Below are positions 15,966 to 35,997 of a stretch of DNA of 64,000 nucleotides, piece by piece (the stretch's first letter is position 1; every line of letters begins with the position of its first letter). The DNA is from a virus, in IMG/VR virus record IMGVR_UViG_3300025012_000043, positions 1-64,000 of that record; one strand, written 5' to 3'. The translations under genes were made by a program, and so were the position numbers. Below the pieces are notes generated by a model. It was not told the origin of the DNA. It made no database searches and worked only from the letters and a program-made list of their open reading frames with translations.

Positions 15966-16541
15966 CCCTTTCTCCTCCGTTACCTCTAAAATTGAAATAT
16001 CTGATTCATGAACGACTTGAATGTGCCCACCAGCTGACGCATCTGGAACAAAATCTACAGAATGCGGCTTTACAATGGCTTCTACAACATTTACTACATC
16101 ATCACCAATCTTCCCCATACGTGTTTTACCCATAGCATTAATGGATAGCCCAATTTCATTAAGCCAACCATTAGTATGGGCCTCATGTACCTTTTCCCAT
16201 AGGCCACTATCTCTAATCCCTATTTTTGCGCCGATCCCCTTCTCTTCAGGAATGTAATAGGATTCAAGAATGGTACCTACCCAATCCCTAAATGAACGGG
16301 CTGCTTTTCCCGTGGCTTCGGGAGATCCTGGTACAGGATGATCTACGTACATCTTCTTACCAATAAATAGTGGAGCCGCTGACTCTAAGCATTCTGGAGT
16401 GTAGTAATTCTTTCTTTTACTGAGTCCCGACTTAATTAATACCGCAGTGATAGTTTTCTTATCCACATCAACCTGAGGTGTGCCCTCAAATAACAGGATG
16501 TCCCCAACCATCTCCGTTTTTTGATCTACCTTTTTAGCCAA
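15300..16541 (-). CDS. Prohead maturation protease fused to scaffold
   Basis: 413 residues starting at TTG 16541 with GGAGGTG at good spacing. Residues 1-180 are the protease: 'KMYVDHPVPGSPEATGKAAR' with candidate catalytic His68, 'EIGLSINAMG' with candidate nucleophile Ser133, and 'SVDFVPDASAGG' (161-172), the closing motif of phage serine head proteases. Residues about 193-413 are an acidic, Glu/Ala-rich helical scaffold with coiled-coil heptads ('EELEEKLIAVTSKAV'). Such proteins assemble inside the procapsid, cleave scaffold and capsid, and are lost before DNA packaging. It is followed closely by the cement and capsid genes. Confidence 0.8.
   Translation of the reverse strand: MAKKVDQKTEMVGDILLFEGTPQVDVDKKTITAVLIKSGLSKRKNYYTPECLESAAPLFIGKKMYVDHPVPGSPEATGKAARSFRDWVGTILESYYIPEEKGIGAKIGIRDSGLWEKVHEAHTNGWLNEIGLSINAMGKTRMGKIGDDVVNVVEAIVKPHSVDFVPDASAGGHIQVVHESDISILEVTEEKGMTTELTLKGLMESNPEIVAEISNGVREKALAEATAAIDAMAEHTKSLIDEFVDLVESETAEVYTNVTESVAKAEVPEGTEKLEEANMGEFVEVLAERDEQIQLLAEAATQAQEANEDLGKKVEELEEKLIAVTSKAVAEKKLQESGLPATMKKRLLASLIGSDPDEMDAIIQESKTMFAEISEELTPKGTVRGLGDGNNKITKEIRQTKLDNLFGILEEKK
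15972..15978 (-). promoter_or_regulatory. Internal ribosome binding site for nested scaffold
   Basis: On the minus strand the sequence reads GGAGGAG, then six bases, then ATG at 15965, inside the protease reading frame. The codons used (ACG GAG GAG AAA GGG, in-frame TEEKG) permit the Shine-Dalgarno without cost to the protease-scaffold linker. Confidence 0.65.
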
Positions 16542-16609: not shown

Positions 16610-19600
16610 TTACACACCATACATTTGATGTGCAAGTAAACGTATCCTACTTAAAAATGCCTCACTATCTATCGTCTCACCAACAAACTGATTAATGGGC
16701 ACATGAACAAATTTATATTCACCATACGGGCTTAATATATCTTTAATATTCCCACGAACTGATGTGGCAATATCACTAACCTTATCTTCTCCGATCCGAC
16801 CTATCACCTTATCCCCAGGAGTTAATTCATTCTTCATATTAGCCAACACCTGTTTAATGGATCCTTCTATTTTATTAATAGCCTCAACATATTTCTCCCC
16901 ATATCCAGCTGGATTACCTTGCCCAACCTTAAGCACCCCAGTTTTAATTAACTCATCAATCTTTGATGGGAGTGAAAATGGGCTCATACCCTGCACACGC
17001 ATTAATGCATTTGATATCATCCCCCTATTTTTTAATGAAACATCCTTATCTTTAAGTGTAAATATATATTCATATATATTCTTATCTGGTGTAGCTGAGA
17101 CTTTTTTGATAACCGCCTGTCTTTTCTTAATATCGTCAAGCTTTTTAGATGACATTTTATCAAATGATATAGTAGGTGACGTTTCAACAACTCGGCCACC
17201 GATATTAACATCTATAGATACAAACCTAGATATATCAACCCTTGGGTCTGCCTTTTTCCACATGCCTATTAATTCTTCCTTGGTGGCATTATACATCATA
17301 CCATCAGGCCCAATAGTAATATTATTAATCTCTCTAGTTGGCCATCCACCAATGCCAACACGCATCCCCTGTGGGGTTATCTCAATTACACGAATAGCTT
17401 CTAAATCACTAGCAATACTAGTAGTGGAATCAATATAAAATTTCTTAACTACCGACTTAATTGTTGGATTATGCAATAAGTCTAATAATATAGTACGTTG
17501 GTTTTCTGGTAATCTTAATAATCTACCTTTAAATGCCTCATCAGTAAGTAATATTTTAGCCGAAGAACGCTGGGTACCCATTAATTTGCCGTAAATGTCT
17601 AGAACTTCTTTTTTGCCTAAGACATCCTTTTCAGTATCTCTAACAGTGGTATTAACTAAATCCTGTATTCTATATAATCCATCGTCAGCAAAACTAGTAG
17701 AATTAAATATACTATTACTAATATGATTCTTATTTCTCATAATAGGTCTCAGTCTAGCAGCAATGGCTTCATCTTCTGGTAAAGTAATAATGTCTTTGGC
17801 TAATTGTTGAAATATTTCAGTTCTATGAACAATTGACATATCGGCTAATGGTGCTACTCCCTCTACCCCAATATTAAACCATGGATCAATGGCCCTCATA
17901 AACTCACTCTGTAAAAAGCCACTATTTTCTTTTACTTTTTTATTGCGCATACCAATAGCCTTAGTATATGCTTCAGCGATAGCTGCTTCACTGGTATCTC
18001 CAGCTGCAACCTTACCCCATACCGCACGTTCTTCTTCAGCCATACCACTCAATTTAGTTATAAGTTTATTATTAATAAATTTGCCACCTAACATATTCCA
18101 CCAAAAACTAGCTTTATTAAATGTTTTAGTACTAGCTACTCTATTAATTAATGCCTGCAATGGCCCAGCCTCATTTGGATCAATCGGAATAAGTCCATTA
18201 ACTGATCTATTAAATGCTTCAGTGACTGAATTTTTAATGATACCACCAGGCCCAAACATCAGTCTCTTCCACGCAAGACTACTAATAGTTGTCATTGCTT
18301 TCTTTGGAGAATTCCATATATCAAATAAAGATGAATAAACCTCACTATTAGTAAACGTATTAAACATTAATTGTCTTACACTATTTGTTGCCATATCTTT
18401 CGCAAACACTTTGCCCACATTTTTACTAGCACTAACAATAAGTGCCTTTTTATCTATGGGTGCATCAACCCCAAATACACCTAGTGAATTAGCAAGATCA
18501 TGTTCATCACCAACCATCATTTGCCGGATATCAAATGGCTGCTTATTAAACCACATGATCCAATCTTCATCACTAATAGTTCCATCAGGCTTTATGGGCT
18601 TTATTAATTTACTAAGCCCATCACCAAACCCAGCAAAATCATCTGGCCCTATATCAAATTTTGCTCCAATGGGGACTCTTGGTTTGCGTGGTACTTGCTC
18701 TAATTCTTCTGCTGCAGAAGATATAGATTTAAACCATGGACGATATGTACATCTACAATTTGGATGTCTCGGCAATTGAGGACGTGGTTCTTCTGGTTTA
18801 TATAATATTCCATGGGTAGCCCTACAATATTTACATGTTCTTGAATCATTAATGGCTGTATATTCAAAATATCGAATCTGATCAGCATTATCAATATAAT
18901 TAGACATAGCCGACTGATTAAATGCCGTATACCCAGCATCACTAATCATCCCCTCAAGATCATCTGCAGCACGAGCATATGCCCCACGAACTTCATTAAC
19001 CGCTCCACCAACTGCCAAAGACGGCATGACGCCTTGTGCCATTTTTCTATTCATATCATTACCGGCCTTATTAACTCTACCAAGCAATCTATTTAAAACC
19101 GTATCGGCACGCTTGTCAAATATAGTATTCTGCCAATTGTCCCCTTCTCTTTCAATTTTATCCCACATAGCCATGAACTGTGGTCCAGTCATGTCCCATG
19201 GTAAAGGCTGTGCTACTGCGGCAATCTGATTCAATGAATCAGTGGTCGCCCTAGCACTTAATAAGTATGCCCCAGACGATGCCGCATTAACAATATTCTT
19301 AATCCCAGATAAAGTCCTTCTCGTCTCTTCACCAAATATCATCTCTGCAGTATTGGCTAAAGTGGTGCCTTGCTTAATCGCCGTATTAATAGCAAGTTTA
19401 CGCAATAATGACCCAATATCACCACGACCACCAAAATATTTAACAAATTTGGCCCCCTTTTTATAATAAGATTTGGCCGTGGCGGCATGCGTATATAGTT
19501 CTTTAATTGAATCTTCCGATACACCATTAAGTAAGCTACGCATGAACCCATTTATTGATCCTTGTACCTTATCTATGCGCACAACAGCTTCCTTGACTAT

Positions 19601-22600
19601 TTTATTCGTAATGACACCAGTGGCCACTACAGCACCAAATGCCTTATTTAAAGCATTGAGTTGCCATTCATTTGGTATACGCTCACGCATTACATTGATA
19701 ATACGATCTATCTTGTCCTCCATAGTTGTTTCAACAATCTTACCAAGTGTATCACGTATAGTTATATTGTCCGCATAAATGAATGAAGCCTTTAAATATT
19801 CTTCCAATAACTGCACTTCAGTTGGAGCATCACTTATATATCCTTTAAAGGGATCGCGCCATGATATATCAGAAAGCTTGCTCAATGATTGGGTTGGGTC
19901 AATAACCCCATTAATAATTGGAACAAATTGCCCGCCACTATCTTTGGTGATATCAGCAATCCCAATATATTTATATAATGGGATGCCACCATCTTTACTC
20001 ATTAATTTATATGCTTCCTTAAAAACGTTGTCATCCTTAAAATCTAATAAAATATTTGTTTCCTTGGATACCTTATTAGCTATATCCTTGCTGATTTTAC
20101 GCAAAATACGCATACGATCTTCAGTAAGCGCAGTAATATCTACCCCTTCATTAAATTTACTAACCAATTCACTAATTGGCACCCCATTACCAGATAAATT
20201 AGTAGTATATATCATGCGCTCATATGTATTAGCTAATTCTTTAACAAGATTAACATTCATAGATATCTTTTGAACTCTATTTGGGATCCTTATATCCTTA
20301 CCAACTTTTTCAACCACATCAACCGCACGCTTATATGCACCAAGTAACCCTTTTGCATTGGTTAGTTTGATAACCTCTTTAGTCAAAGCATCCGACTGAT
20401 TATAATATACCATGTTTTCAATCAACATTACTTCAGCTCGATATTTCGCTATTCTTGCACGAATATGAGCTAGGTCAGTCTGGATCTTTATATCCTTCAT
20501 TAGCGCCTTTACTTCTTCGCCAAGACTATTCTTAACTATATTCCGCTTTATTTCTCTCTCAGCATTTAAAAACATATTCCTTCTGTCTGCCGTAATAGTT
20601 TTTAATATTCTAACCTTATCTGCTTCAGCATTTGGCTTACTTGAATCATATCCTTTTTGTACCAATTCAGATAAAACGTCATTATAAACATCTCTTTTAG
20701 CTTTAGTGACCTCTGGTATATGCAATCTATCTAAATATTCACGCATTGACTGAATTTGCTGATCAGACATCTCAACAAAACCAGCTGGTAGTGCATCTAA
20801 TTTCTTTTTATGGTCTTTGATAGCCTCCATTAATTTAGAAACAGCAGAATCTCTATCCATAGAGATCGGTATTTTAATATCACCACTATCAAAATACCCA
20901 ACTTCGATTCTATACCTGGCCATGATATCCCCGGCCATTTGCTCGCCATTTGGTATTGAGTATGAGTTTAATATAGACATCTCATCAACTATGGCTTGCA
21001 TTGCATCTATAGCAGAAATATTATTAGCATGCATAAGAGCATACATATGTTCTACACTAGGTCGTAATCTTACATTATCCTTAAATTTATCCCATAATTT
21101 TGGCAAAAATTCATTAATAGAAATAGAAAATTTAGTCGTTATCCCATTAATATATTTTAATTCATCGTCAGTCAATGGTAACGTTATTGCTATATTTTTA
21201 AACTGTTGGATATTACCTGTATAAAACTCCGTATTTTTACCAACCCTCATCTTAAGTGCGCGTTCTATATTTATTATTCTTGTTTCAATAGTAGATAATG
21301 CACCACGGGCGGTAAAAAGATCAATATTTAAAGCTTCTATCTCACCAGCATCTAATAATATATCAAGTTTACTCAAACGGTCTTCTAATGATTTAATTTT
21401 TTCAATAAACTCCATCTTTTGGGCTACCAATCCCTTAATACGTAATCCTTTTTCATTAATCCCCCCCTTTAATTGCATATTTAAAACATAAAATGTCTCC
21501 TGATATTTTCTAAACCCACGCTGTGACGCCTCATTCAATCGTCCCTGTAATGTGGTAATTTTCTCTCCATATAATTTCTGCAATATAACATCATTTGTTT
21601 TTTCAAGTTCCACTGAAAATTTGTCAATCTGATGTACAATACGGCTCATTTCTGTATCATTGATGGGCCGCAGAATCTGATCAATCTCTATTTTAACCTC
21701 CGTATCTAATATCCCACCTGCATCTTTATACCATGTATGTAATATTTGCTCAATGCTCATATCCCGTTGCATCATAAGCCCAAAATTATGATATGTAGAA
21801 TTAATATATTTAGCCCCCATAAAAATATCACTTACTTCATCGAGTTCAGCTATCAATTTATTATACTCATTTTTATATTCATTCATCCATTCACTATTAC
21901 TCATCTTTTTACTCTGTTCAAATAGAATACCAAGCCTATCAAATATAGCTATTTGCCTAGAATTCATTTTAATATGTAGTCCAGCATCACCTATGCGATT
22001 AAGCTGCTCAATCAATTCTTTATATTCAGCCCAGTCTTGTGGACTAGCTGCCTTCCCAACGATAGTAAGTTTTTTCTGTAGTGCTACCATTTTATTTAAT
22101 GATTCAGTTTCATCTATCTGTTTAATATTTACAGGAGTACGTAACAATTCTTGTAATCGCTTAATCTCACCTAATATTAATCCTGTTTCAGTTTTATTAC
22201 CCTCTGCCTTCCGTAATGCCCTATATGCAGAAGATAACTGCATATCAATATTAGAAGTTGATAAAATATCGTATTTATCAACGAACATCTTACCACGTCC
22301 TTCAATTATAACCTTTCTACGTTCAGTAAGATCATTCAAGTCCACTAATAATTGATTAACCTTGTTCTGGTCATTAATCTTCCTAGCTTCTTCTATCTCG
22401 CCCCTCAATCTTTTCATTTTCTTATCAAAAGCATCAATCCCAGCGATAATAATACCAGATATATATTTTTGTTTATTGGGTAAAGAAGTACGGACCAGAT
22501 TATTTTTCAGCGCAATAGTAATATTAAGCTCATCAATAACTAAATCAATATTCTTAATAATTTCTTGATTAGTAGCTGTAACCTTTTCTTGTATTGGCCG

Positions 22601-25600
22601 CATCATTCTTTTAAATATATGTACTTCATCAAGCTTTGGCAAAGAATGAGTTAGATCATCAATGACTGAATGGATCGATTTTAATTCATCTGTTAATTCA
22701 TCCACAGTATGTAATACAAATCCACCATATGATGACCGCTCAGCAATCCTAATTGCTGATGGAGTATCCTTTTTTGCTAGCCCATTTAATTCGGCTCTTA
22801 ATTTCTTTAATATTTTATCTGCTGTCTTGATCCTATTATTTATATGTGGTGTACCAAGTTTACTTTTTAATTTGCCAATATACCCACCTAATTCATAGGG
22901 ACCCGTACCAACTAATTTCTTTATGGCTATATTTAATCTATTAATCCTAGCTAAACGCTTATCAACACTCATTCCAGTATTAATAATATCATTATTTATT
23001 GACGACAAAACATTATATAACTCTATTTGCCTCAAAATCTTTCCAGAATCTACCATCATAGCATTTAAAACATTGTCTTGGTTATATAATCCCTTAAGCT
23101 TATCAATTATATCTGATACTATACCAACTCTATCTATATCAACCTGTATCAAGCGTTTTTCAGTTATATCTTTGGTTTCTAAATATATCTTATTTAACGA
23201 TTCAAGTTTTTCTTGGATACCTTTGATAGACTCTATAGTACTACCATCAGATAATTTAACGCGGATCATCCAATCTTCTATAAATATAGGAGGCTTGGGT
23301 TGCCCGCCTATCCTAGGCTTAATCTTAAGATCCGCACTAACAAATGGGATGCCAACTAGCTTGCGCTCATACATAGCTATTTTCTCTAAAACATCATCAT
23401 ACAATGATGGCTTATATTTATAAGAAGGGCTTACTGCATTGCTTATAGTATTTAATATAATTAAATCTAATGCCTTACTAATTTTAGATATGGTTTCTGG
23501 CTCTGAGAATTTTAATTTTCTAAAATCTGGTACCCTACTATCTTGTATCCCAGCCTTTTCTAATATATCTATAATGCCATGCATCTTTTCTTCTAGAACC
23601 GTAGCGACATTACCTATATCATCAATAGTATATTCTTTACCATCAACAACCCCAATAGACCTAATATTAGTCTTGGCACGCAATAATAAACTTTCAATAA
23701 ACAACTTCCTGTCCTTATTCCTGCCCAATAATTGTTCTAATATAGGTTTTTGCTCATATCTACCTGCTATTTTTTTAATGTCCTCACCAATAGTCCCGCG
23801 AGTCAAGAAGTCTACAATAGACTTTGGATTTAAACTAATTTGTACACCTTGTGGAGATGGACCATTAATCCTATTAAATATGTCTGATTCATATTTAGAT
23901 ATTCTCTTCTTAATCCTTAAAACTTGCTCATGCACCTTACCATATTCAGTTACTTTCTTTTGATAGATTTTAAACCATTCATCACTTCTTATTAAAACTT
24001 GGTCATCTACACCAGCAGCCCTTAAAATATTTAAAAATGTTTCTTGCACCCCACCAGTGGTTTCATTTAATAATTTTACCCATTCATCCGGATTAACCTT
24101 CATTTTCTCTTTGGCTATATGTGTAACTTCAACGGTTTGGTCTAATAATTTCTTTAAACTAATACTATTCAATTTGTCATAATATTGCATATATATCGCA
24201 CTTGGGTCATCAACAATCTTGGCGTCAACGACAATATTAAATCTATCTTTCAATATGATCCGTAGGGCCATAGCAACTAATCCACGACTATCATAGCTGG
24301 GATTAATTAATAAATTACTGTATATTTTTCTGTCAGCATTATAATTTTCAAATAAATATTTCTCTATCCCACCTAATGGTTTTTCATGCAATACCTTTAA
24401 TATCCTAAATCTAGGCTCAATCAACGCAAAATTTGGATCATACATTACTTGATTACTGGCAATGACTATTCTGCCATCATCTAAAGCATATGTACGTATA
24501 TACGATTTAAGCATGTCATCCTTATATTCAAATTTGGGCATGACACGTACACTTTCCGACCAACGCTTTAAATCATTAAATCTATCGAATTCTACACCAG
24601 CCAATGTTTTTTCTCGTACTAATAAATTTCTATATTCTTCTGCCTCTTTTTGTGTTAGCCCACGTTGTAGGCTGGCGAACGGTACCTCTATTGATCCTGT
24701 GGCCAAGGCTGATATAAATTCATAGGTACGCTCACCCATATATCTACGTAAAGCACCAACAATATTTCTACCATAATGATCTTTAGATATACCAGACATA
24801 CCCAACAATGAATTTGACAAATCAAAGGCAAATTCGTCTAATATAATACCATGCTTTTTAGCGACTTGTCGTAAGGCTGCGGTAAATACTGGCGAATCTA
24901 TATTAATCAACAATGCCTTATTAAGAGTCTTCCTTGCTCGCGGCAAATTCCACCCAGCGACTTTAAATGTTGAATTAATGTTAACCCCAGCACTACGTAG
25001 GTATTTCTCTAATTCAGTAGCTACCTCTCTAGATGTTTTAACATTATAATCCTTAGTTGATTTTAAAACACCATCGACTATACCAAGTATGGCCTCACCT
25101 AAATCATTTTGTGGTAGGTATCTATATAAAACATCACTTTCAAGATCTTTAAATATTCTTGCCCTTCTGGCGTCACTAGTAGTACGTACTATCTTAAATT
25201 GTTGATCAACCTCATCAATCTTTTCCCATTCCTTGGTTAACATTTCTTTAGCTAATGATAAGTGTAAAAAATCCAACACGGTTTCCTTAAATGGGACGAC
25301 TTTAGATAGATGCACAATATCATCACTACGTACCGAGAAAGCCTTCCCTACCAATACTAATTCTTCTTGTATTGTAAGCTGCATATCTAATTCTGTTTGC
25401 TTCCTAAATAAACTTTTGATCTTTCTCTCTAGATTGCCAATCTTTAAATTATCTTTAATCTCATTCGCATTTTCTCTAATAAGAACTTTATATGCTGCAT
25501 CACGCTCAATAATTATATTATTCAATTTAACCCTTAAATCATGAGCCTTGGTCTCTGCTTTGGTGATATTGATCTTCAAGATTCCTTTATCAACATTGCG

Positions 25601-28600
25601 GGACAACAATGTTAATAGTTTAAACCTATCAACCGATACAACATCAAAATTATCAGCATATCGTACAGTCAAATTCTCAACCAGATCTTTAAGCGGCCCC
25701 TTTATCTGCCCTGGATCATAGTCAACTACCATTGGAACTAATTTACCTAATTCTTCTGGTTTTGTTGATGGGACCATGACTTTCTGTGACTCTATGAAAT
25801 CAATCACATCCTTTAAAATAAACTGAACCCGCAATTCAGATTTCTGCTTTGCCGTCAATGATACTAATTTACTGGCTGATTTAGATATATCTTGTATCAC
25901 CAAACTAACATCGGTACCTAATTCTGCAGCCTTTTTAAATTCATCATTATATTTTTGATTTAAAAATATAAAATCATTAATACTTTTTGTGTTTAATTCG
26001 GCAATAATGTTGGCCACAGTATCTTTACTAACCTTTTTGCCGATAGCGATATCTGATATAAACTGATCTACTTCATTGGCAGCATTATTAAATTTACGAG
26101 CAAATTGTACTTGAATATACTTCTTCACATATATTTCAACAAGATTATTCTGGGCAATAGTTTCTATCTGTTTAGGTGGTAATTTGACAGCTTTAACCAA
26201 ATTGCTAAATACCTTTTTGAGAACCTCATAATCATGTTTAAGCATTGAAGCAGTATAAAATGGATCATGGACGCTTAATTGTCCTGTTAATTCGCCTACC
26301 TTACTTTTTAAGGCAGTGATCTGCTCCTGTAATTCAATTAAACGTCTAGTATATTTTGGTTCCATTAGTACTTTACCAGCATTTGCTAATACATACAATC
26401 TTTCAGATTGGACCACACCTAAATCATTTAGAGCCTTTGATAATTCATCGTATAAATCCTTCTTAACTTTCGTATCCTTTAATTTTTTAATATTAATCTC
26501 AGCAATTGATATCCCGTTACGTAATTTGGACACATTACGACGCAACAGAACTGGCCTAGACATTTCAATATCCAACTGCTCCTTCATGTCTTTTAAAGAA
26601 ATAGTTTGCTTATTTATTTGTTCATTAATATATGCCAAATTAGCCACTTTAACATCGTCATATTGTAAAACATTTTGTGCTAACCTATCTTCAACGACCT
26701 TCATATTTGCTTCATGGGCACTAATAATATCACGTATAATAGTAATATCATTTTCTAGTTTAGTAATCTCAGTTTGTACTCTACCAGCAATATCACCACC
26801 AGCCTTTGAAAACTCATTCTTCTTTATATCTAATATTCTATTCAATCTTTCTACCTGGTCATTTGGTTGAATCTTCATTGTGTATATATATTGTGCATCA
26901 TCGGCTATGACACTTGGCAACTGTTTGATTTTTAATACCACACTATCTAATTCAGCATTGAGTGTCCCAAGTAAATCAGTATGCCTGATTATCTCAGCGT
27001 CAATACGTTCGGCCCTAGGTAATTCCTTGATATTGCCAATATTACTCTCAATAACTACCAATCTATTACGAGCTGCCAATATCTCTTGATCTAACTTGTC
27101 AACACCAAGTGAAGTGGCCTTACCTACCATATTTCTTTTATTAAGTTCATCAAAATTATTTAATACATCATTAATATCTATAATTTGTTTATTGGCATCA
27201 TCAGTCTTTTCTTTGGCTAATTCGTCCAATCTAATACGTAATACGTACTTCATACGCGTAACTACTTCAGGATTAAAAAATGGTACGCCACCATTTAATT
27301 GTTGTATGATCTCTCTCGTATTTGCAGATATATCACCAGAAGTAGCAATATCGCTAAATATATGGGTCCATTTATTAATTATCTGCTCACGATTTCTATT
27401 TAACCCATCTAATTCTTCTTTAATATTTTTATATTCTGCGCGTAATTCACTAATCCCAGATTTACCAATGATCCAATTATATTCAGCCTTAAGTTCAATT
27501 ATTTTCTTCTTAATATTTTCTACTTCGCCATTTATTGTATCCTTAGTAGCGAATAAATTAATAAATTTAACAGGTGATCCATTGATACTATTCCAAAAAT
27601 CAGTAGTCTTAGGCAGTACTCTTGCCATTGATGAACCAATATTTGATAACCATTCTTTGGCAATAATATTCACAACATTACTACGTAATTTAAACCAGTC
27701 TGCTAGGTTTGACGAATCAACCCTAGGTAACATCATTTTATCAATATCTGAAATAAGCTGTGACTTGGTTGTGGTTAGTGTTACAAAATACCCATATTTT
27801 TGTTCTAATTTGCTTAATGTTTCTTTCTCAATATTTGTTAATACTGCTTTATGTCTTAATTTATATAACTCTTCACCACCTATAAATTTACCATTGTCAT
27901 TCGCAAACCACAACCATCTTTCATTAATGACCCCAAAAGCCCTAATTTTACTAGCTAAATCTTCTTCTCTCTTAATACTATTACGTAATAATTCAATCTG
28001 ATATAATACCTTATCTTGTAATGTTTTGTCATCCACTACACGCGCATATCTTAAGTCTATATCAATAAGTTGCCGTAACATGAAATCATTATATATTGCA
28101 TTCAATGATGGATTGAATATTAACGTTCTACTGTCCATATTAACAAAATGCGAGCGCATGGTTTTTAAAGCATCTAGCTTAGCATATAATTCAGTGGCTT
28201 TTTGGGGTTCTTTTGTAAGCGCCGCATATGCCTCTTTGATTTGTAAATCAATATATGATGATGATATGGATTGTACTGGGATACTTTGATCAAACCAAAT
28301 TGACACACCAAAGGCACTACCAATCTTTGTGGCTGAAGTTATGATACCATCAGTTTCTGGGATATATCCATATATATCTTTACCAGCTTCGCCCAAATAT
28401 TTGGTCTTAATATTGCTATATTTCTGCCATTTAATATTAATGCCTTCTATACCCTTTTCTCTATTCAGCCCAACTAATCCACCATAGAGTTGCCTAATGC
28501 CTTTTTGATACTCTTCCATAGCCATCTTTTCTATAACTTCCGACCCCATGGCATCTTGTATCTTATCTGTAAGAATACTTTTTAATTTCCCTTCTGCTTC

Positions 28601-31600
28601 ATTGATATATTCAATATCCTGATTGGTAAGCCCAATTCTAGATATCTCTTTATTCATTTCATAAAAAGAAGTTTGTATATCTCTGTCAATACTTGTCATA
28701 TCAGTAGTATATTGTGTTCTAGTTTTGGCCGATATTAATTCAGTAGCAGTATGGATCATTGAATTAAATGATATATCTTTTGGTAAAACGCCCTCAGCAC
28801 CAATTATCCTAAATCTATTCTCCATACTTTCAACGATTATTGAAAATTTGGCATCATGTGGTTTAAATCCTTTACCACTATTTAAAATTATTTGAGTATA
28901 TGGGTCTAATTCACCATTTATATTTCTAAACCCAAGGTTCATAGTACGTATATTATTATTCTTATCCACATATACAACAACAGGAAATTCAGCCGACTCC
29001 CATCCCTTTAATCTACCATCCGGTGCCTTGCTTCTTAGTATTTCAAATAATTTATCCCCTCCTTCTTTAACGACTCTACCTACTTGCCTACGTTTCTCTT
29101 CATTAACCCTACTGGATATCATTGGAGTAATCTTCTCAAGATTCTCAATACCAATATTGTCTATTTCGCTCTTCATAATAGACTTTTGTATTGGTGTGCC
29201 AATATCATCAACAATTACCCTTATTCTATTATATATATCTAATTGAGTATCTGGGTCTATAGCACTCTTAGTAATAGTACTAATATCATCAATATCATCG
29301 ACTGGTGCCTTTGCAATTATGGTTTGATATTTCCTAATCTTATTACCATCACGTGATATGTCATAATGATATCCAGACCCAATTATTGATGGCTTAGAAT
29401 TTATACCAAATAAATTAAAATTTTCAATTACACTTTTACGCTCTATATCAGATAGAGCATAATATTTATATAATTTTGGATAAACCTTTTCATCTGGTAT
29501 AAACCCACCAAACATCTTTGATGGAAATTCTACAACTAATGCATCAAGCCCCTTGGTACCGTGCGATATAATCTCTGCTTCAGTAATCAATGCATTAGCT
29601 TGAGCTGGTGTGGCATTTATAGGAATATGCAATTTATATACAGCCATCGCACCTACTCGATCTGGGAATAAAAATGCTCTGTCTCCCAATAACCCGAACC
29701 TTTTCATTAAATCAAATGGTAATCCTGGTGCTCCATCTGCTCCAGTTATTAATGACGGAGATATAACCTCTACAGTACTAACCATTTCACCTTTCATACT
29801 TAGAATGATGTGGTCAGTTGATAATCTAAAACCATCATCAATAATATTCTCACGCATAAACCTTTTAAATGGTATGTCAATTCTAATAGAATAACTCTTT
29901 AATCTTTGAATCGCTTTTTCTGCTTTATTGATGGTCTGATCAAGCTCTTCTAACCGAAAAGCAATAGCATCAACTATCATGCCAATGTGTCTATCAACAT
30001 CTCCATCAGATGCAAACTCAGCCTTAATTGATGGTAATATAATATCCATATATTTATGTGGATCTGATAAGGAAATCTCACCAGAAATAACATTAAATAT
30101 CTCTTCGTTTATCTTATTCTTTTTGGTTATATCAATAAGGGATGTTCTTTTCTCATGTAACTCTTGTATTTTACGTAATACAACCATTAATCTTGCTTTT
30201 TCAGAATTCCTACTATCTAACACTGATAAAACACTTGATACCTCACCGATAGCATCCGGATTGATCTTCCCAGCTCTAATGATACTAAAACCACCAATGG
30301 CATCATCGGCATATAAATCAGGGTTAGATGCATCAAATTGGGCAAACTTATCTATATCTAACTTTACAATCTTTGAACGAATATCTACTATATCATTTTT
30401 TAACAAAAGCCGGTTACGCTTAAACTGCTCCATATTAAGTATAGAAAGTGCTGATGCACTCTCTTCTATTATATCTGGTATTTTTCCAATATCTTTGGCT
30501 TGGTCTTCGGGCATATTAGAAGCAATAGCCGCAAACCTAGTCTCTAACTTTGAAAGTTCTTCAACTTTACTACTTAACTGCATTACAAGAACTTCTCTAT
30601 CATCTAATACTTTACGCAATAGTGCATTACTAGCGCTCTTTGTTTTATTCTCGGTGACCAGATTATGCCCAATAGACTCAAATAACTTTTTATTAGCATC
30701 TTTTACTCGTATTTTAACTTCAGAAAATATGTTACTTGCACCAGTATTAAAATGTTCTTCCTTTAGTTTATCTACATCTGCCAGATCAAGTAATACAAAA
30801 CGTCTTTGTTCAGTAGGTAAATATCCAAGACCACCCATTACAAAATCAACTGCTTCATCTAATTTCTGGTTATATTTTGCCCTTCCAGGGATATTCTCCA
30901 ATTCATCCAATTCTTTGGTAAATCCATTAACTTTAAACTTAAAATAATCATTTATTAATTGTTTTAGTTTATTACTATCTCTAATATTAGTAGCATCTTC
31001 CTTAATTAAATCTTCAATTCTATGTATGTCATATTCAAATTTACCAAATTCTTCTGCTGAACTGAATGGCCCATGAGGATGTAACAAATACAACATTGGT
31101 GGTTGTAATGTTTGGATCTCTGTCAAAATTGACGCCACACGACCACCTATTAACGTATCAAACCCATAATAAATTGGTGGGTCTTTAAACAAATTATTGG
31201 CCCCACCAAAATATTTAATAACATTATCAAGCTCTTTAGTTAGTGCCGCATATTCTTCTGGGGATTTGATCTTATCAATCTTATTTAATCTGGTCAATAA
31301 ACTACTAACTCTATCCATACTAATACCTTGCTCAAATGAACGATCAAAAAGTTTTGTGACGTCACGTATTTTAGTTAGTTGATTAAATTTGATTTCTAGT
31401 TCAACCCGTAATTCATCTAATATATATGAGTTAGTAAGTGATTCTAAAAATAACATCTCTTCTACTGGTTTAATTGAGGTATTGCCCTTAAGATATGAAC
31501 CAACAGCCGAATTTACTGATTTGCTGTTATTTTTGATCCAATCTAAAAATCCTCCATATGAATCTTTATAATTAATATGATATAATAATTTCTTTCTGGT

Positions 31601-33961
31601 CGCATCAATAGTTTCCGATGAAGCGCCTTTAAAATATGCTAAATCTAACTTCATAAAGGTACTTAAATCTTTAGCATTGTCTCTTGTTATATTAATATCT
31701 ATATCACTCAACCCCAATGAATATAGGATATTATTTAACGTAGTATTATTAGTAGCAACTTCTTGTATTATTAATTTACTAATATTCTTAATAAATTTAC
31801 TTCTTTGTATAATAAACTCGGTACCCTTATCTCCCGAGTTTAGATTTTTAAAAAGTTTCTTATCTATATTGGTGAATGCTCTTGCAGCCCTTCCTTTAAA
31901 TACTCTAACTAATTTTTGTGAATCATCAATTTCTGATAACATACCAGAAGTAGATACCATATTAATAGCATCTTGCTCATGTTTAAACCAATCGATCCTT
32001 GGACTAAAATGCGGGACCACCCACGTATAATCTCTTATTAATCTATTAAATTCGGCCCATGCATCAATACTAGACACAAACCTGGCTGAACCATCAGCCC
32101 TTTTAATACTTTGCCAATCAATGATTTTATCAAATTCGTCTTGTGATAATATGGCAGTTCTTATAGAAGTAATCAAACTTTCTTTGTATGGTGCCGTCCT
32201 TAAATCTACTCCCTGTCCACTAATCTTAAATTTCTTAACTATTTCCTCTATAGTAACTGGATCCTTTGGCCGCACATGGAGATTGATCCATTCCTCGGCA
32301 CTAGTATTAATTACACTAGGGTCCGCAACAACATTAAATGTTTCACTTGATATGCCATATTTAATTAAAGGATCCGGCTCAACAACATCACCCATAATAC
32401 CTGGTGGTATATCAAGATTTGATGCATTGACAAATTTATTTATCTCTTCTACAGCATCCATTAATATAGGCAATTGTCTTTCATCATCTAGTGATACCAA
32501 AGAAATATCTTCAATTCCAGTATAAGCCTCTCTACGAGCCTCCCTAGATCTAATTTGTGATCGTAATATAGCATCTTGAACAATATCCCCATTAGACTGC
32601 TCGCCTGCTCGTATGGCAATGTCATTATAACTAATACCAATGATATCTGGTCTTACATTATGTTTAATAGGTGATAATCTAACATCAACGTCATCCAAAA
32701 TATCACTAGCGATTAATCTCTTCTTAATTGACTCGGCCACTACTCCAGCTTGCATATTATCATCAGTATTCATCAATTGAATAAATTTGGGTCTTTTAGT
32801 ACTACGCTGATATGATCTAACTATTGCATCACCCATATCTTCACTAGATACATATTGTGATGCTCTACTAATAAATTCTAGATCATTAATATAATAATTA
32901 GATATATTACTATATCTCGCATCTATATATAATATATCAATATCATTTTTGAAGATTTGCTCTAGTACACCACTATCTTTAACTGGTGGGATATATGCTA
33001 TTGTTTTATTGCTAGGCTTGTGTTTTAATAATATGGCAAATGAATGATCATCAACTTTAATACGTTGCATAATAAAATCTTCAACTTCTTGTGTGGCGTC
33101 ACCAGACATCAGCCCAACATTGTTGGCTAATTTGAGCGCTTCACCTAATGGTAATAGTTTACCACTACGAAATTGCGTATAGATTAGCCCACTATCTTTA
33201 TCCATCCAAACATTTACTCTTGGGTTCTGTTTAATTATTTTAGTGGCTAATCTAGAATAAGCCACATCATTATTTGGCAGAACCAAATCTGTATAATTTC
33301 TACTAACTATAGTCGCACCTACTTCATCGAGTAATGTATTTAGTTGTCCTATTAAACGGCTACGTTCTTGTTGTATTTTTTGTGGTTCTGATTTTATGCC
33401 AGCATACGGATTAACACCAACTAACATTTTTGCTGGGGCGGTTATCACTTCATTAATCTGTAAAATCTTTTTATTTACATCTTTGATTTCATTTTGTAAT
33501 TTGCTAATCCTGTTAATCTCTTCAACACTCACTACTTGATTAAACCCAGCCTCAACAGAAAAAGCATGCATACTATTATTACCAACGCCAATGGAAAATC
33601 TTTGTTTACCACTATCAACAAGAATTTGGATACCATATCTATTACCTATACCACTAACACGTAATGCCTCGGTATTTGCACCATTAACAACAGGCTTCCT
33701 AACAATAAGGTCAGCTATTCTTTTATCTGTTGCGTCTATTAACGAATCGGCAGTATACCCGAGCGCGGCACGGTCTAATTGTACTACTCCCTCTTCACCA
33801 GCTATTGTCTTGTATTCAGAACGCAAATTCTCTAACTTAAGGTCTAGCTCTTGAATACGCTCTTGGGCTTCATCACTCCCGTCATTATTTACGAGTGCTA
33901 AATAGTGATCAGTATATGCCGCAACATACCTTTTTATAAACCCATTATGAGATTCTGCCAC
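16610..33961 (-). CDS. Giant 5,783-residue head protein containing a MuF domain
   Basis: This is a single uninterrupted frame of 17.35 kb. GTG at 33961 overlaps the portal stop (TAGTG) and has GGAGGA upstream. Residues about 5,035-5,070 carry the MuF/SPP1 gp7 head-protein signature: 'YFEYTAINDSRTCKYCRATH', then 'PRHPNCRCTYRPW'. Its place between portal and protease is the standard MuF position; ordinary MuF proteins have 250-500 residues. Roughly 5,000 residues precede the motif, mostly helical with long Lys/Glu/Leu/Ile heptad stretches and scattered beta-rich patches (for example about 100-125). About 700 residues follow it. I find no HExxH metalloprotease, Walker A, or DxDGD polymerase motif. 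Two pairs of distant segments resemble each other (about 43-62 with 2153-2172, and 1899-1915 with 3901-3915). MuF domains occur in 'polyvalent' phage proteins packaged and injected with DNA. I infer a giant virion protein of about 650 kDa that is likely ejected or internal. A tape measure role is less likely given its position and motif. Confidence 0.85.
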   Translation of the reverse strand: MAESHNGFIKRYVAAYTDHYLALVNNDGSDEAQERIQELDLKLENLRSEYKTIAGEEGVVQLDRAALGYTADSLIDATDKRIADLIVRKPVVNGANTEALRVSGIGNRYGIQILVDSGKQRFSIGVGNNSMHAFSVEAGFNQVVSVEEINRISKLQNEIKDVNKKILQINEVITAPAKMLVGVNPYAGIKSEPQKIQQERSRLIGQLNTLLDEVGATIVSRNYTDLVLPNNDVAYSRLATKIIKQNPRVNVWMDKDSGLIYTQFRSGKLLPLGEALKLANNVGLMSGDATQEVEDFIMQRIKVDDHSFAILLKHKPSNKTIAYIPPVKDSGVLEQIFKNDIDILYIDARYSNISNYYINDLEFISRASQYVSSEDMGDAIVRSYQRSTKRPKFIQLMNTDDNMQAGVVAESIKKRLIASDILDDVDVRLSPIKHNVRPDIIGISYNDIAIRAGEQSNGDIVQDAILRSQIRSREARREAYTGIEDISLVSLDDERQLPILMDAVEEINKFVNASNLDIPPGIMGDVVEPDPLIKYGISSETFNVVADPSVINTSAEEWINLHVRPKDPVTIEEIVKKFKISGQGVDLRTAPYKESLITSIRTAILSQDEFDKIIDWQSIKRADGSARFVSSIDAWAEFNRLIRDYTWVVPHFSPRIDWFKHEQDAINMVSTSGMLSEIDDSQKLVRVFKGRAARAFTNIDKKLFKNLNSGDKGTEFIIQRSKFIKNISKLIIQEVATNNTTLNNILYSLGLSDIDINITRDNAKDLSTFMKLDLAYFKGASSETIDATRKKLLYHINYKDSYGGFLDWIKNNSKSVNSAVGSYLKGNTSIKPVEEMLFLESLTNSYILDELRVELEIKFNQLTKIRDVTKLFDRSFEQGISMDRVSSLLTRLNKIDKIKSPEEYAALTKELDNVIKYFGGANNLFKDPPIYYGFDTLIGGRVASILTEIQTLQPPMLYLLHPHGPFSSAEEFGKFEYDIHRIEDLIKEDATNIRDSNKLKQLINDYFKFKVNGFTKELDELENIPGRAKYNQKLDEAVDFVMGGLGYLPTEQRRFVLLDLADVDKLKEEHFNTGASNIFSEVKIRVKDANKKLFESIGHNLVTENKTKSASNALLRKVLDDREVLVMQLSSKVEELSKLETRFAAIASNMPEDQAKDIGKIPDIIEESASALSILNMEQFKRNRLLLKNDIVDIRSKIVKLDIDKFAQFDASNPDLYADDAIGGFSIIRAGKINPDAIGEVSSVLSVLDSRNSEKARLMVVLRKIQELHEKRTSLIDITKKNKINEEIFNVISGEISLSDPHKYMDIILPSIKAEFASDGDVDRHIGMIVDAIAFRLEELDQTINKAEKAIQRLKSYSIRIDIPFKRFMRENIIDDGFRLSTDHIILSMKGEMVSTVEVISPSLITGADGAPGLPFDLMKRFGLLGDRAFLFPDRVGAMAVYKLHIPINATPAQANALITEAEIISHGTKGLDALVVEFPSKMFGGFIPDEKVYPKLYKYYALSDIERKSVIENFNLFGINSKPSIIGSGYHYDISRDGNKIRKYQTIIAKAPVDDIDDISTITKSAIDPDTQLDIYNRIRVIVDDIGTPIQKSIMKSEIDNIGIENLEKITPMISSRVNEEKRRQVGRVVKEGGDKLFEILRSKAPDGRLKGWESAEFPVVVYVDKNNNIRTMNLGFRNINGELDPYTQIILNSGKGFKPHDAKFSIIVESMENRFRIIGAEGVLPKDISFNSMIHTATELISAKTRTQYTTDMTSIDRDIQTSFYEMNKEISRIGLTNQDIEYINEAEGKLKSILTDKIQDAMGSEVIEKMAMEEYQKGIRQLYGGLVGLNREKGIEGINIKWQKYSNIKTKYLGEAGKDIYGYIPETDGIITSATKIGSAFGVSIWFDQSIPVQSISSSYIDLQIKEAYAALTKEPQKATELYAKLDALKTMRSHFVNMDSRTLIFNPSLNAIYNDFMLRQLIDIDLRYARVVDDKTLQDKVLYQIELLRNSIKREEDLASKIRAFGVINERWLWFANDNGKFIGGEELYKLRHKAVLTNIEKETLSKLEQKYGYFVTLTTTKSQLISDIDKMMLPRVDSSNLADWFKLRSNVVNIIAKEWLSNIGSSMARVLPKTTDFWNSINGSPVKFINLFATKDTINGEVENIKKKIIELKAEYNWIIGKSGISELRAEYKNIKEELDGLNRNREQIINKWTHIFSDIATSGDISANTREIIQQLNGGVPFFNPEVVTRMKYVLRIRLDELAKEKTDDANKQIIDINDVLNNFDELNKRNMVGKATSLGVDKLDQEILAARNRLVVIESNIGNIKELPRAERIDAEIIRHTDLLGTLNAELDSVVLKIKQLPSVIADDAQYIYTMKIQPNDQVERLNRILDIKKNEFSKAGGDIAGRVQTEITKLENDITIIRDIISAHEANMKVVEDRLAQNVLQYDDVKVANLAYINEQINKQTISLKDMKEQLDIEMSRPVLLRRNVSKLRNGISIAEINIKKLKDTKVKKDLYDELSKALNDLGVVQSERLYVLANAGKVLMEPKYTRRLIELQEQITALKSKVGELTGQLSVHDPFYTASMLKHDYEVLKKVFSNLVKAVKLPPKQIETIAQNNLVEIYVKKYIQVQFARKFNNAANEVDQFISDIAIGKKVSKDTVANIIAELNTKSINDFIFLNQKYNDEFKKAAELGTDVSLVIQDISKSASKLVSLTAKQKSELRVQFILKDVIDFIESQKVMVPSTKPEELGKLVPMVVDYDPGQIKGPLKDLVENLTVRYADNFDVVSVDRFKLLTLLSRNVDKGILKINITKAETKAHDLRVKLNNIIIERDAAYKVLIRENANEIKDNLKIGNLERKIKSLFRKQTELDMQLTIQEELVLVGKAFSVRSDDIVHLSKVVPFKETVLDFLHLSLAKEMLTKEWEKIDEVDQQFKIVRTTSDARRARIFKDLESDVLYRYLPQNDLGEAILGIVDGVLKSTKDYNVKTSREVATELEKYLRSAGVNINSTFKVAGWNLPRARKTLNKALLINIDSPVFTAALRQVAKKHGIILDEFAFDLSNSLLGMSGISKDHYGRNIVGALRRYMGERTYEFISALATGSIEVPFASLQRGLTQKEAEEYRNLLVREKTLAGVEFDRFNDLKRWSESVRVMPKFEYKDDMLKSYIRTYALDDGRIVIASNQVMYDPNFALIEPRFRILKVLHEKPLGGIEKYLFENYNADRKIYSNLLINPSYDSRGLVAMALRIILKDRFNIVVDAKIVDDPSAIYMQYYDKLNSISLKKLLDQTVEVTHIAKEKMKVNPDEWVKLLNETTGGVQETFLNILRAAGVDDQVLIRSDEWFKIYQKKVTEYGKVHEQVLRIKKRISKYESDIFNRINGPSPQGVQISLNPKSIVDFLTRGTIGEDIKKIAGRYEQKPILEQLLGRNKDRKLFIESLLLRAKTNIRSIGVVDGKEYTIDDIGNVATVLEEKMHGIIDILEKAGIQDSRVPDFRKLKFSEPETISKISKALDLIILNTISNAVSPSYKYKPSLYDDVLEKIAMYERKLVGIPFVSADLKIKPRIGGQPKPPIFIEDWMIRVKLSDGSTIESIKGIQEKLESLNKIYLETKDITEKRLIQVDIDRVGIVSDIIDKLKGLYNQDNVLNAMMVDSGKILRQIELYNVLSSINNDIINTGMSVDKRLARINRLNIAIKKLVGTGPYELGGYIGKLKSKLGTPHINNRIKTADKILKKLRAELNGLAKKDTPSAIRIAERSSYGGFVLHTVDELTDELKSIHSVIDDLTHSLPKLDEVHIFKRMMRPIQEKVTATNQEIIKNIDLVIDELNITIALKNNLVRTSLPNKQKYISGIIIAGIDAFDKKMKRLRGEIEEARKINDQNKVNQLLVDLNDLTERRKVIIEGRGKMFVDKYDILSTSNIDMQLSSAYRALRKAEGNKTETGLILGEIKRLQELLRTPVNIKQIDETESLNKMVALQKKLTIVGKAASPQDWAEYKELIEQLNRIGDAGLHIKMNSRQIAIFDRLGILFEQSKKMSNSEWMNEYKNEYNKLIAELDEVSDIFMGAKYINSTYHNFGLMMQRDMSIEQILHTWYKDAGGILDTEVKIEIDQILRPINDTEMSRIVHQIDKFSVELEKTNDVILQKLYGEKITTLQGRLNEASQRGFRKYQETFYVLNMQLKGGINEKGLRIKGLVAQKMEFIEKIKSLEDRLSKLDILLDAGEIEALNIDLFTARGALSTIETRIINIERALKMRVGKNTEFYTGNIQQFKNIAITLPLTDDELKYINGITTKFSISINEFLPKLWDKFKDNVRLRPSVEHMYALMHANNISAIDAMQAIVDEMSILNSYSIPNGEQMAGDIMARYRIEVGYFDSGDIKIPISMDRDSAVSKLMEAIKDHKKKLDALPAGFVEMSDQQIQSMREYLDRLHIPEVTKAKRDVYNDVLSELVQKGYDSSKPNAEADKVRILKTITADRRNMFLNAEREIKRNIVKNSLGEEVKALMKDIKIQTDLAHIRARIAKYRAEVMLIENMVYYNQSDALTKEVIKLTNAKGLLGAYKRAVDVVEKVGKDIRIPNRVQKISMNVNLVKELANTYERMIYTTNLSGNGVPISELVSKFNEGVDITALTEDRMRILRKISKDIANKVSKETNILLDFKDDNVFKEAYKLMSKDGGIPLYKYIGIADITKDSGGQFVPIINGVIDPTQSLSKLSDISWRDPFKGYISDAPTEVQLLEEYLKASFIYADNITIRDTLGKIVETTMEDKIDRIINVMRERIPNEWQLNALNKAFGAVVATGVITNKIVKEAVVRIDKVQGSINGFMRSLLNGVSEDSIKELYTHAATAKSYYKKGAKFVKYFGGRGDIGSLLRKLAINTAIKQGTTLANTAEMIFGEETRRTLSGIKNIVNAASSGAYLLSARATTDSLNQIAAVAQPLPWDMTGPQFMAMWDKIEREGDNWQNTIFDKRADTVLNRLLGRVNKAGNDMNRKMAQGVMPSLAVGGAVNEVRGAYARAADDLEGMISDAGYTAFNQSAMSNYIDNADQIRYFEYTAINDSRTCKYCRATHGILYKPEEPRPQLPRHPNCRCTYRPWFKSISSAAEELEQVPRKPRVPIGAKFDIGPDDFAGFGDGLSKLIKPIKPDGTISDEDWIMWFNKQPFDIRQMMVGDEHDLANSLGVFGVDAPIDKKALIVSASKNVGKVFAKDMATNSVRQLMFNTFTNSEVYSSLFDIWNSPKKAMTTISSLAWKRLMFGPGGIIKNSVTEAFNRSVNGLIPIDPNEAGPLQALINRVASTKTFNKASFWWNMLGGKFINNKLITKLSGMAEEERAVWGKVAAGDTSEAAIAEAYTKAIGMRNKKVKENSGFLQSEFMRAIDPWFNIGVEGVAPLADMSIVHRTEIFQQLAKDIITLPEDEAIAARLRPIMRNKNHISNSIFNSTSFADDGLYRIQDLVNTTVRDTEKDVLGKKEVLDIYGKLMGTQRSSAKILLTDEAFKGRLLRLPENQRTILLDLLHNPTIKSVVKKFYIDSTTSIASDLEAIRVIEITPQGMRVGIGGWPTREINNITIGPDGMMYNATKEELIGMWKKADPRVDISRFVSIDVNIGGRVVETSPTISFDKMSSKKLDDIKKRQAVIKKVSATPDKNIYEYIFTLKDKDVSLKNRGMISNALMRVQGMSPFSLPSKIDELIKTGVLKVGQGNPAGYGEKYVEAINKIEGSIKQVLANMKNELTPGDKVIGRIGEDKVSDIATSVRGNIKDILSPYGEYKFVHVPINQFVGETIDSEAFLSRIRLLAHQMYGV

Positions 33962-35997
33962 TAATCATCCTCCGATAAAAATGCCTCAACTAGCTTATGT
34001 GACATCATTAGACGAGATTCTGTAACTGGTGCACGCTTTTTGGCCCTACTTGGTCTATTTAATATATCACTCAATACCATCTGTATATTACCAGCCTCAT
34101 TATTCTGTCCAGTTGGGGTTGGCATCCCTGGCATAATACCAGCACCAGGCCCAGCGCCAATATCATCTTGAGTAGGAGCCCCAGGCATAGGATTGACCCC
34201 ACCACCCAAGGCTGGATTATTAGCCAAACTAGCCTGTTGCTGCTCCATTTGCTTCATGGCTTCAGCGGTTTCTTGGGCTACTAGCTCTTTCTCCTTCTCA
34301 TAATCAAATCCAGCAAGTTTAGCCAATGTACGCTTAGATACTATCTTCATAGCATCAAATGCCTGGAATGCCATTGCCATATCACCAAGATTTTCCGTAT
34401 CAATCCTTGGGAAATGAATTTCAACTAAATCTACTGCATCTACTTCCTCACTCATCGTAATTACGACATAATCATTCATCATACCTTCTGCCTTAGCTGG
34501 GTCACCTCCATCAATGGGCATTTCGGGGGTCGGTGGCACACCAGGCATTGGGCGTCTACCGGCTGGCATACTGGTAATGTCATTACCAGGGATTGCCGCA
34601 GCTTCCATCACATTCTTTAAATATTCTTTAACGACCTTTGTAGTCCGCTTATTAACTATCGCCATCGTATTCGTATCGTATAATTCCCCCTCTTGCGTTA
34701 ATGCTAACGATGAAATATTAAGTCTCTTTGCGACTTTAAAACTATCAGGTAATTCACCATGCTCAGTTGCTGCCCACACTACTACCCACATAATACCATA
34801 TTTAAGCGCAAACTCCCACAATTCTTGCTGAAATTCCATGGAACGCAAAAATGGGAATTTTGTCCTGCCAGAATTCTGATAGTTAGATTTCCCCCCAGTA
34901 TCCCCAAGAATATCCGGTGGTAACATAGACCCAGTAGCAGACATGTTTTTAATTTCCGACAAATCAGATTGAACATCGGACCCCTGTATATTTGGGGTCA
35001 TAAAAGCGTACACCATATCATCACCATGGACAACAGTTGTATTTGGCCGTGGCGGTGACTTATGCTTTTTGGCTTCTTCCTGTATTTGTACTTTATTGGC
35101 CCCCTTCATGGTTATATCAAGGAAAAATGTAGACCTTGCTTTATTAATACCAGTACGCATCCTAAGAATATCTTTATATTCACGCAACCATGGTAAATGA
35201 TTTGTAAGTGTGGATAATCCTCTCCTACGATTGGTAAGAAGACTATTTTTAAAATGAAATACAAATACATCAATATTTTTTTCATCCATGCCAGCAATTT
35301 CAGCATTATCTGGCAATTTTACTTCTTTCTCTAACTGTGGATGCTGAATACAATCAATACTCTTATACCATATATCTTTCATTTCACTATTAATACTCAC
35401 ACCCTTGGCACCAGTTGCCTTAACATACTGGCGTCTGAAATAAACTGGTACGGCAACATCATCTGGATCAAATAAAATTTCCACAATTTCCTGAGGCTCA
35501 ATGTCTCGTAATGTAACCTTACCACTCTGTTTATCAACAAACAGCGCAAAGAATACTTCGCCATCAATATTATATCTATTGATATACATAGGGAAATGAT
35601 AAGGTATTTTATTGCGAGTTGATGTCCAAAATTCATCAATCACCTTTTGAATTTCTGGGATCTGCGATGTCACCCTTAGTCCCTTACCAGCCACAAATAC
35701 GGTCTTATAAAAAATCTCGCGAGCAGCAATTGGATTGGTCATTACGGCTGACCAAGCCATCTTACTTAATTCTTTGTGTGTATCAGATGTAAAGTCTCTT
35801 ATGGAATCATTGGAAGTGCCAATACTACGCCATCCAGCGTTCTCAGATTCCAATTCATTTAACATGCTAATCATAGTAGACTCATACAACTCTTTAGCCG
35901 CACCAACTGTGCGTTCTAAATGATCAACTGCTATCTCGGTATCTAATAATGACTCTTCTAGCTTTGTAACCCCAAACATTCTATTAAATATACCCAT
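33961..35997 (-). CDS. Portal protein
   Basis: 678 residues. The N-terminal and core pattern is that of SPP1/lambda-type portals: 'NPIAAREIFYKTVFVAGKG', 'VIDEFWTSTRNKI', 'MYINRYNIDGEVFFALFVDK' and 'LRDIEPQEIVEILFDPDDV'. A crown-like C-terminus is rich in Pro, Gly and Met (about 590-650), and the protein ends in a short basic and acidic tail. The portal forms the dodecameric gate at the capsid vertex through which DNA is packaged. AAGGGG precedes ATG 35997. The stop overlaps the giant MuF gene start by one base, implying coupled translation of the two vertex proteins. Confidence 0.85.
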   Translation of the reverse strand: MGIFNRMFGVTKLEESLLDTEIAVDHLERTVGAAKELYESTMISMLNELESENAGWRSIGTSNDSIRDFTSDTHKELSKMAWSAVMTNPIAAREIFYKTVFVAGKGLRVTSQIPEIQKVIDEFWTSTRNKIPYHFPMYINRYNIDGEVFFALFVDKQSGKVTLRDIEPQEIVEILFDPDDVAVPVYFRRQYVKATGAKGVSINSEMKDIWYKSIDCIQHPQLEKEVKLPDNAEIAGMDEKNIDVFVFHFKNSLLTNRRRGLSTLTNHLPWLREYKDILRMRTGINKARSTFFLDITMKGANKVQIQEEAKKHKSPPRPNTTVVHGDDMVYAFMTPNIQGSDVQSDLSEIKNMSATGSMLPPDILGDTGGKSNYQNSGRTKFPFLRSMEFQQELWEFALKYGIMWVVVWAATEHGELPDSFKVAKRLNISSLALTQEGELYDTNTMAIVNKRTTKVVKEYLKNVMEAAAIPGNDITSMPAGRRPMPGVPPTPEMPIDGGDPAKAEGMMNDYVVITMSEEVDAVDLVEIHFPRIDTENLGDMAMAFQAFDAMKIVSKRTLAKLAGFDYEKEKELVAQETAEAMKQMEQQQASLANNPALGGGVNPMPGAPTQDDIGAGPGAGIMPGMPTPTGQNNEAGNIQMVLSDILNRPSRAKKRAPVTESRLMMSHKLVEAFLSEDD

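Follow-up and report, generated by a model that had tools for sequence, protein, structure and literature searches.

A giant gene in the head module

The window analysed here is the whole stretch of 64,000 nucleotides with which a virus record of 112,589 bases begins. It carries a head gene module in the order terminase large subunit, portal, giant gene, protease/scaffold, small gene and capsid, with the following features.

37071..38855, minus strand: terminase large subunit, 594 aa (phrog_2, 9e-12, a weak match)
33961..35997, minus strand: portal protein, 678 aa (phrog_10963, 2e-32; 79% identity in both relatives)
33969..33973, minus strand: ribosome-binding site GGAGG, 7 bases before the GTG of the giant gene
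16610..33961, minus strand: giant MuF gene, 5,783 aa, GTG start and TAA stop (orthologues in three lineages, pN<pS)
15300..16541, minus strand: head maturation protease/scaffold, 413 aa, directly downstream of the giant gene (phrog_29592, 1e-9)
14770..15270, minus strand: small protein, 166 aa, in the cement/head-fibre position (by position only)
13718..14740, minus strand: major capsid protein, 340 aa (PF25209, 4e-49; 84% identity in relatives)

The giant frame runs for 5,783 codons without an internal stop and occupies 17,352 of the 64,000 nt, the 27% of the window given in the preliminary description; its product has a predicted mass of ~650 kDa as a single chain. The portal stop TAG and the giant's GTG share one base (TAGTG) behind the GGAGG, and this overlap is retained in the relatives, confirming that the start of the giant gene is coupled to the portal stop. 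The downstream protease/scaffold protein is 29% identical to the prohead protease of Glutamicibacter phage Montesquieu over 144 residues and 84% identical to its copy in a 178-kb relative, with an additional weak scaffold match (phrog_172). The small 166-aa protein had no family match in Pfam or PHROGs.

The gene order portal, giant, protease/scaffold, cement, capsid had been called canonical from the letters alone, and Montesquieu, which has a related portal, displays the identical order, the cement assignment resting on position. In that phage the terminase and portal are followed by a head morphogenesis protein of 354 aa and then by a protease (395 aa), a head-fibre protein (117 aa) and the capsid protein (360 aa). 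Because a 354-aa MuF protein holds this place in the same order, the giant gene sits in the MuF slot, that of the minor head protein.

Conservation of the frame in related viruses

The same frame was found in five further IMG/VR contigs from five IMG datasets, giving three lineages in all: one contig was 100% identical over the compared regions, one encoded 5,910 aa, and three carried the same 5,840-aa frame. The architecture sought in related metagenomic phages is thus present in them, with frames of 5,910 and 5,840 aa. End to end, the three giants (5,783, 5,910 and 5,840 aa) share 42–54% identity, and the gene is undivided in each lineage; homologues with the MuF part as a separate gene, which the preliminary description had allowed for, were found in none of the three. 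In every 500-residue bin pN was lower than pS and divergence was highest at third codon positions, a substitution pattern which indicates that the giant is under purifying selection over its entire length. Homologous frames in independent contigs, together with this selection, establish the frame as real, and recurrence in five contigs, five datasets and three lineages with third-position divergence rules out an assembly artefact, a concern raised at the outset, as well as a chance open frame.

Wider searches returned nothing beyond this clade. Five profiles (A1, A2, A5, A7 and A8) run against viral_contigs retrieved the same five contigs only, a portal profile found no match in genome_contigs, residues 1–2,800 and 2,501–5,000 of the giant found none in the phage collection, and four slices of the giant found none in a PDB sequence search.

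The window record and the 178-kb relative (G005) are colinear. At its other end the relative encodes a tape-measure candidate of 1,674 aa, identified by position and composition rather than by a family match, which is cysteine-free and contains hydrophobic segments. One gene beyond it lies a 724-aa protein with weak tail-family matches (Prophage_tail). The relative is probably a long-tailed virus with a genome of about 180 kb, and the same would by extension hold for the window phage, whose record stops short of the tail end.

Several further differences and similarities between the two records were observed. The terminase large subunit of the window is 77% identical to the relative's copy, intein excluded: the relative carries inteins (Intein_splicing, two with LAGLIDADG) in its terminase, ribonucleotide reductase and AAA-type ATPase genes (L017:8894-11845, L040:2948-6505 and L038:9339-11537, respectively), and the window record's copies of these three genes align on both sides without an intein. 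A segment of ~3 kb (38836-41970) that separates the window's terminase from the nearest conserved gene beyond it holds genes for an HNH endonuclease and a PIG-L deacetylase-like protein and is absent at the corresponding site of the relative, and a transposase gene (49171-50247, phrog_506) has no counterpart there by blastp. A conserved 427-aa protein near the terminase (42621-43901) has no Pfam match, and its G005 relative contains 6.8% cysteine, the opposite of the giant. The window also carries two glycosyltransferase genes (816-2438 and 54022-55077, the second conserved in the relative) and genes for an SbcC-like ATPase and an SbcD-like nuclease with one small gene between them (45662-49171). 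Two genes of the record (86324-86926 and 99007-99585) match one 200-aa G005 protein (175132-175731), from which a small repeated gene family appears to exist in the record.

A conserved MuF core between two diverging extensions

The giant protein is divided as follows.

19622..33961, minus strand: N-terminal extension, residues 1-4,780 (cysteine-free and without a known family; lineages share 38-48% identity)
32522..33709, minus strand: possible degenerate metallo-beta-lactamase-like (PhnP/RNase Z-type) domain, residues 85-480 (Foldseek, tentative)
18692..19624, minus strand: part equivalent to an ordinary MuF protein, residues 4,780-5,090, a putative portal-binding minor head protein
18749..18835, minus strand: MuF zinc-type motif, residues 5,043-5,071 (C-x2-C ... 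HPNC-R-C)
18452..18694, minus strand: second conserved block, residues 5,090-5,170, after the motif (DGTISDEDWIMWFN..QP.DIRQMMVGD)
16613..18451, minus strand: C-terminal extension, residues 5,171-5,783 (no known family; 38-47% identity)

Curated cut-offs for MuF membership were passed by two families: residues ~4,990–5,090 scored 35.5 bits against Pfam PF04233 (cut-off 29.6), and the protein scored 50.2 bits against NCBIfam TIGR01641, the SPP1 gp7 family (cut-off 39.65). Matches of the MuF region to PHROG minor head/head morphogenesis families reached 3e-12, and PF04233 was above cut-off in the giants of both other lineages too. The gene adjoins the portal in the head module, with the capsid gene three genes on. 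These results confirm the Cys/His signature first noticed near residues 5,040–5,070 and place its cysteines precisely, in a C-x2-C at 5043/5046 and a C-x-C at 5069/5071.

Conservation is concentrated around this motif. Between lineages, residues 4,960–5,090 share 72–79% identity and residues 5,090–5,170 share 68–79%; the MuF core, at ~79%, is as conserved as the portal (79%), against 38–56% for the remaining ~5,400 residues. For capsid and protease the identity is 84%, compared with 42–54% for the giant end to end. A conserved core with a diverging remainder would fit a fixed anchor with diverging cargo. No known domain was found outside MuF with Pfam, NCBIfam and PHROGs, and no internal repeat was significant, the one pair seen (2,814–2,876 and 3,903–3,973) showing 29% identity over ~70 residues at E 0.004. 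Of the ~5,000 helical residues originally described ahead of the motif and ~700 behind it, the lengths stand, and the helical character holds only in part, since a low-confidence model contains strand-rich segments (e.g., ~250–450).

To place the size of the giant, we surveyed IMG/VR using a single codon form of HPNCRC as the pattern, with limited flanks, which yielded at least 80 readable loci. The complete MuF frames in this sample (at least 50) ranged from 79 to 824 aa with a median of ~350, and they carried 62–715 residues ahead of the motif versus ~5,040 in the giant. Among the matches listed, the only MuF frame of more than 1,000 aa was a member of the giant's own clade. The longest of four MuF matches inspected in the phage collection measured 1,463 and 1,197 aa, with the MuF region near the N-terminus. 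A length more than ten times the usual, as first described, thus agrees with the sampled median (~16-fold), with the qualification that some MuF proteins reach 1,197 and 1,463 aa. The literature searched, which mostly excluded subscription papers, did not describe any MuF protein as large as this. Judged by its sequence, the giant is an extreme, hugely extended MuF minor head protein and a new variant of the type.

A fold hint near the N-terminus

AlphaFold models built with three sequences had a pLDDT of 42 for residues 1–1,130 and 36 for residues 4,690–5,783, and the N-terminal model was the one used for fold searches. With this low-confidence model, the top Foldseek hits in the PDB were mostly metallo-beta-lactamase folds (RNase Z, PhnP, YhfI and PqqB; best E 1.7e-3), and BFVD returned two phage hydrolases (7e-5 and 3e-4). 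When 28 slices were aligned with PhnP relatives by hhalign, residues 320–350 scored best (30.5 versus 19.8 for the next), pairing TIAYIPPVKDSG..LEQIFKNDIDILYIDARY of the giant with the PhnP segment RVAWLSDTAG... at a probability of only 12–14%. No sequence-level metallo-beta-lactamase match was found for the N-terminal region, and the HxHxDH metal-binding motif is absent from all three giants. These models give a hint of a metallo-beta-lactamase-like fold near residues 85–480, which would be degenerate if there.

Cysteine exclusion

Each of the three giants contains exactly four cysteines, all in the MuF motif. At the 1.88% cysteine content of the genome's conserved genes, ~108 would be expected (P about 4e-41, Poisson), and ~29 would be expected even at 0.50%, the rate of four other head proteins. 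Other amino acids deviate far less, with histidine and tryptophan also low (ratios of 0.56 and 0.59). Three lineages have thus kept ~5,700 residues cysteine-free outside a zinc-type motif.

We compared this composition with that of proteins from other phages. There are no cysteines in the 3,500 residues of N4 vRNAP, in T7 gp15 (747 residues) and gp16 (1,318), or in P22 gp7, gp20 and gp16 (1,309 residues together); T7 gp14 has one. Extended MuF proteins from other phages (1,463, 1,197 and 656 aa) have only 2–4, in or near the motif. P1 DarB is a packaged, injected protein and has 9 cysteines in 2,255 residues, so the absence of cysteine is not a requirement for ejected proteins. Cysteine scarcity is a mark of virion proteins in a wider sense, being seen also in the T7 and P22 scaffolds (0) and the relative's tape-measure candidate (0 of 1,674); it therefore favours use in the virion or its assembly over ejection specifically. 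On composition, the pattern lends strong support to the giant as a virion protein and moderate support to its passage through a channel, and a redox or threading constraint may lie behind the scarcity. As a sequence signature of virion or ejected proteins, cysteine exclusion is both simple and testable. In the window, a 329-aa protein without cysteine or family match (8471-9457), which shares 55% identity with the final gene on the contig of the relative, is possibly another virion protein.

A proposed packaged, ejected, portal-tethered chain

The reading that best accounts for these observations is a MuF-tethered, capsid-packaged giant protein that is ejected at infection, analogous to N4 vRNAP without the polymerase, to which we assign a probability of roughly 0.6. 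It follows from the MuF identity, the position in the head module and coupling to the portal, conservation in three lineages, cysteine exclusion, the conserved MuF core versus the diverging rest, and the lack of any enzyme or toxin family found. The original suggestion of a giant internal or ejected virion protein holds as the best reading, with the cysteine pattern as new indirect support.

On this model, a MuF minor-head gene would have gained ~4,800 residues ahead of the MuF part and ~700 after it, to encode one chain of ~650 kDa. By analogy with SPP1 gp7, which is portal-bound at 1–2 copies per capsid (PMC5576092), the MuF module near the C-terminus would attach the chain to the portal while the procapsid assembles, and the long cysteine-free chain would be packed together with the DNA. 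At infection the chain may exit through the portal and tail, extended or as beads on a string, as has been proposed for the transit of N4 vRNAP (~383 kDa, 4 ± 1 copies) through a channel of ~35 Å (PMC12633501), and after ejection it would act in the cell envelope or cytoplasm. N4 vRNAP comprises an N-terminal injection region, the polymerase and a C-terminal region needed for encapsidation (PMC5512222), and crAss-like phages package giant RNA polymerases and partly unfolded cargo (PMC10136315). By our own estimate, two copies of the giant amount to ~1.3 MDa, a cargo mass similar to that of N4 vRNAP.

The steps of this model differ in strength. That the giant is packaged in the capsid is very likely; that it is ejected at infection is probable to a lesser degree. 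The relatives resemble siphoviruses whose tail is filled by a tape measure, and this counts against the model, as the best-studied giant ejected proteins come from short-tailed phages. Also against it, usual MuF toxins have their cargo after the MuF domain instead of ahead of it. For the role after ejection, we would tentatively guess at a conduit or scaffold for DNA entry in preference to an enzyme, a doubtful proposal as it stands. The odds are somewhat short of even that the giant typifies a new ejected class, a cysteine-free chain of ~650 kDa that is tethered through MuF, exceeds N4 vRNAP in size, is found in large long-tailed phages and serves with no known enzyme, e.g., as conduit or scaffold. 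If packaged and ejected, the giant would set a new size mark among single chains that pass through phage tails, and would indicate that MuF anchors can carry cargo on their N-terminal side. Its slot among the head genes is a place to seek unidentified early-infection proteins of environmental phages.

Among the alternatives, the giant could be an internal head protein that is not ejected, a portal-nucleated core or scaffold that organises a large capsid or its DNA and either stays or leaves cleaved. Helix-rich composition, MuF docking to the portal and the lack of enzymatic domains would all suit such a protein, the T7 and P22 scaffolds are cysteine-free too, and SPP1 gp7 binds both DNA and portal, according to works cited in PMC5576092. 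We nevertheless consider it unlikely: a separate protease/scaffold gene with its weak scaffold match follows, and the body of the giant diverges faster (42–54%) than other head proteins (79–84%), which would be surprising in part of a structural lattice.

Cleavage by the head protease could turn the giant into several virion proteins, the MuF piece serving as minor head protein and the others as ejection proteins. The protease gene lies directly downstream and the MuF core, in contrast to the rest, is as conserved as the portal; we know of no cleavage motif for this protease. Proteolytic maturation of head proteins and many ejected proteins in the virion are described for the giant phage SPN3US (PMC10052503). 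The frame, however, was never split into separate genes in three lineages, and we regard such a polyprotein as quite improbable.

More improbable again is a MuF polymorphic toxin or polyvalent effector, in which the giant would deliver one or more enzymes against the host or competing elements. Many phages join MuF to effector domains (PMC5576092, PMC5512222), and the Foldseek hint of a metallo-beta-lactamase-type fold near the N-terminus could be read in this direction. Searches with Pfam, NCBIfam and PHROGs in those giants that were scanned found no toxin, MPTase, ART, methylase, helicase, PBECR or LPD domain, and the HxHxDH, HExxH and Walker A motifs are all absent. Usual MuF toxins carry their cargo behind the MuF domain rather than in front, opposite to the main extension here, and the next gene encodes the 413-aa head protease rather than an immunity protein. 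No RNA polymerase family was found in the same three databases or in the PDB search with four slices, so the preliminary remark that no classical toxin or polymerase motif is visible is borne out; the placement among 'polyvalent' proteins is unsupported, since no defining catalytic or LPD domain was found in Pfam, NCBIfam or PHROGs.

A tail tape measure protein, or a fusion with one, can be rejected: PF10145 has no match in the giant, its weak phrog_167 match (residues 2,386–2,705) is coiled-coil noise because that family matches all 14 control genomes, and the colinear 178-kb relative has its separate 1,674-aa candidate.

Comparison with known systems

Compared with MuF proteins of the SPP1 gp7/Mu gpF type (PF04233, TIGR01641), the giant likewise has the C-x2-C ... 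HPNCRC motif and a gene right after the portal, and differs in being ~16 times the sampled median length with ~5,040 residues before the motif. Other long MuF proteins include the 'minor head protein-like protein' of DSS3_VP1 (1,463 aa) and the minor head protein of Stenotrophomonas phage vB_Sm_QDWS359 (1,197 aa). Each is encoded next to the portal gene, on its downstream side, and has a long extension and only two cysteines; their MuF region is N-terminal with the extension behind, and they are four to five times shorter. MuF polymorphic toxins and polyvalent proteins share with the giant a MuF domain fused to long extra sequence and a late gene, whereas the giant has no catalytic or LPD domain, its main extension on the opposite side and no small immunity-type gene downstream.

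Among ejected proteins, T7 gp15/gp16 and P22 gp7/gp16/gp20 resemble the giant in lacking cysteine, apart from its MuF motif, and in a proposed role as ejected cargo, but they are encoded by separate smaller genes of short-tailed phages, have no MuF and show no detectable sequence relation. With N4 vRNAP (gp50, Schitoviridae), the giant has in common a giant single chain, a cysteine-free cargo part and a packaging part towards the C-terminus (PMC5512222); it differs from the polymerase in that no enzyme was found, in its MuF-type anchor, in a chain ~65% longer and in its siphovirus-like relatives.
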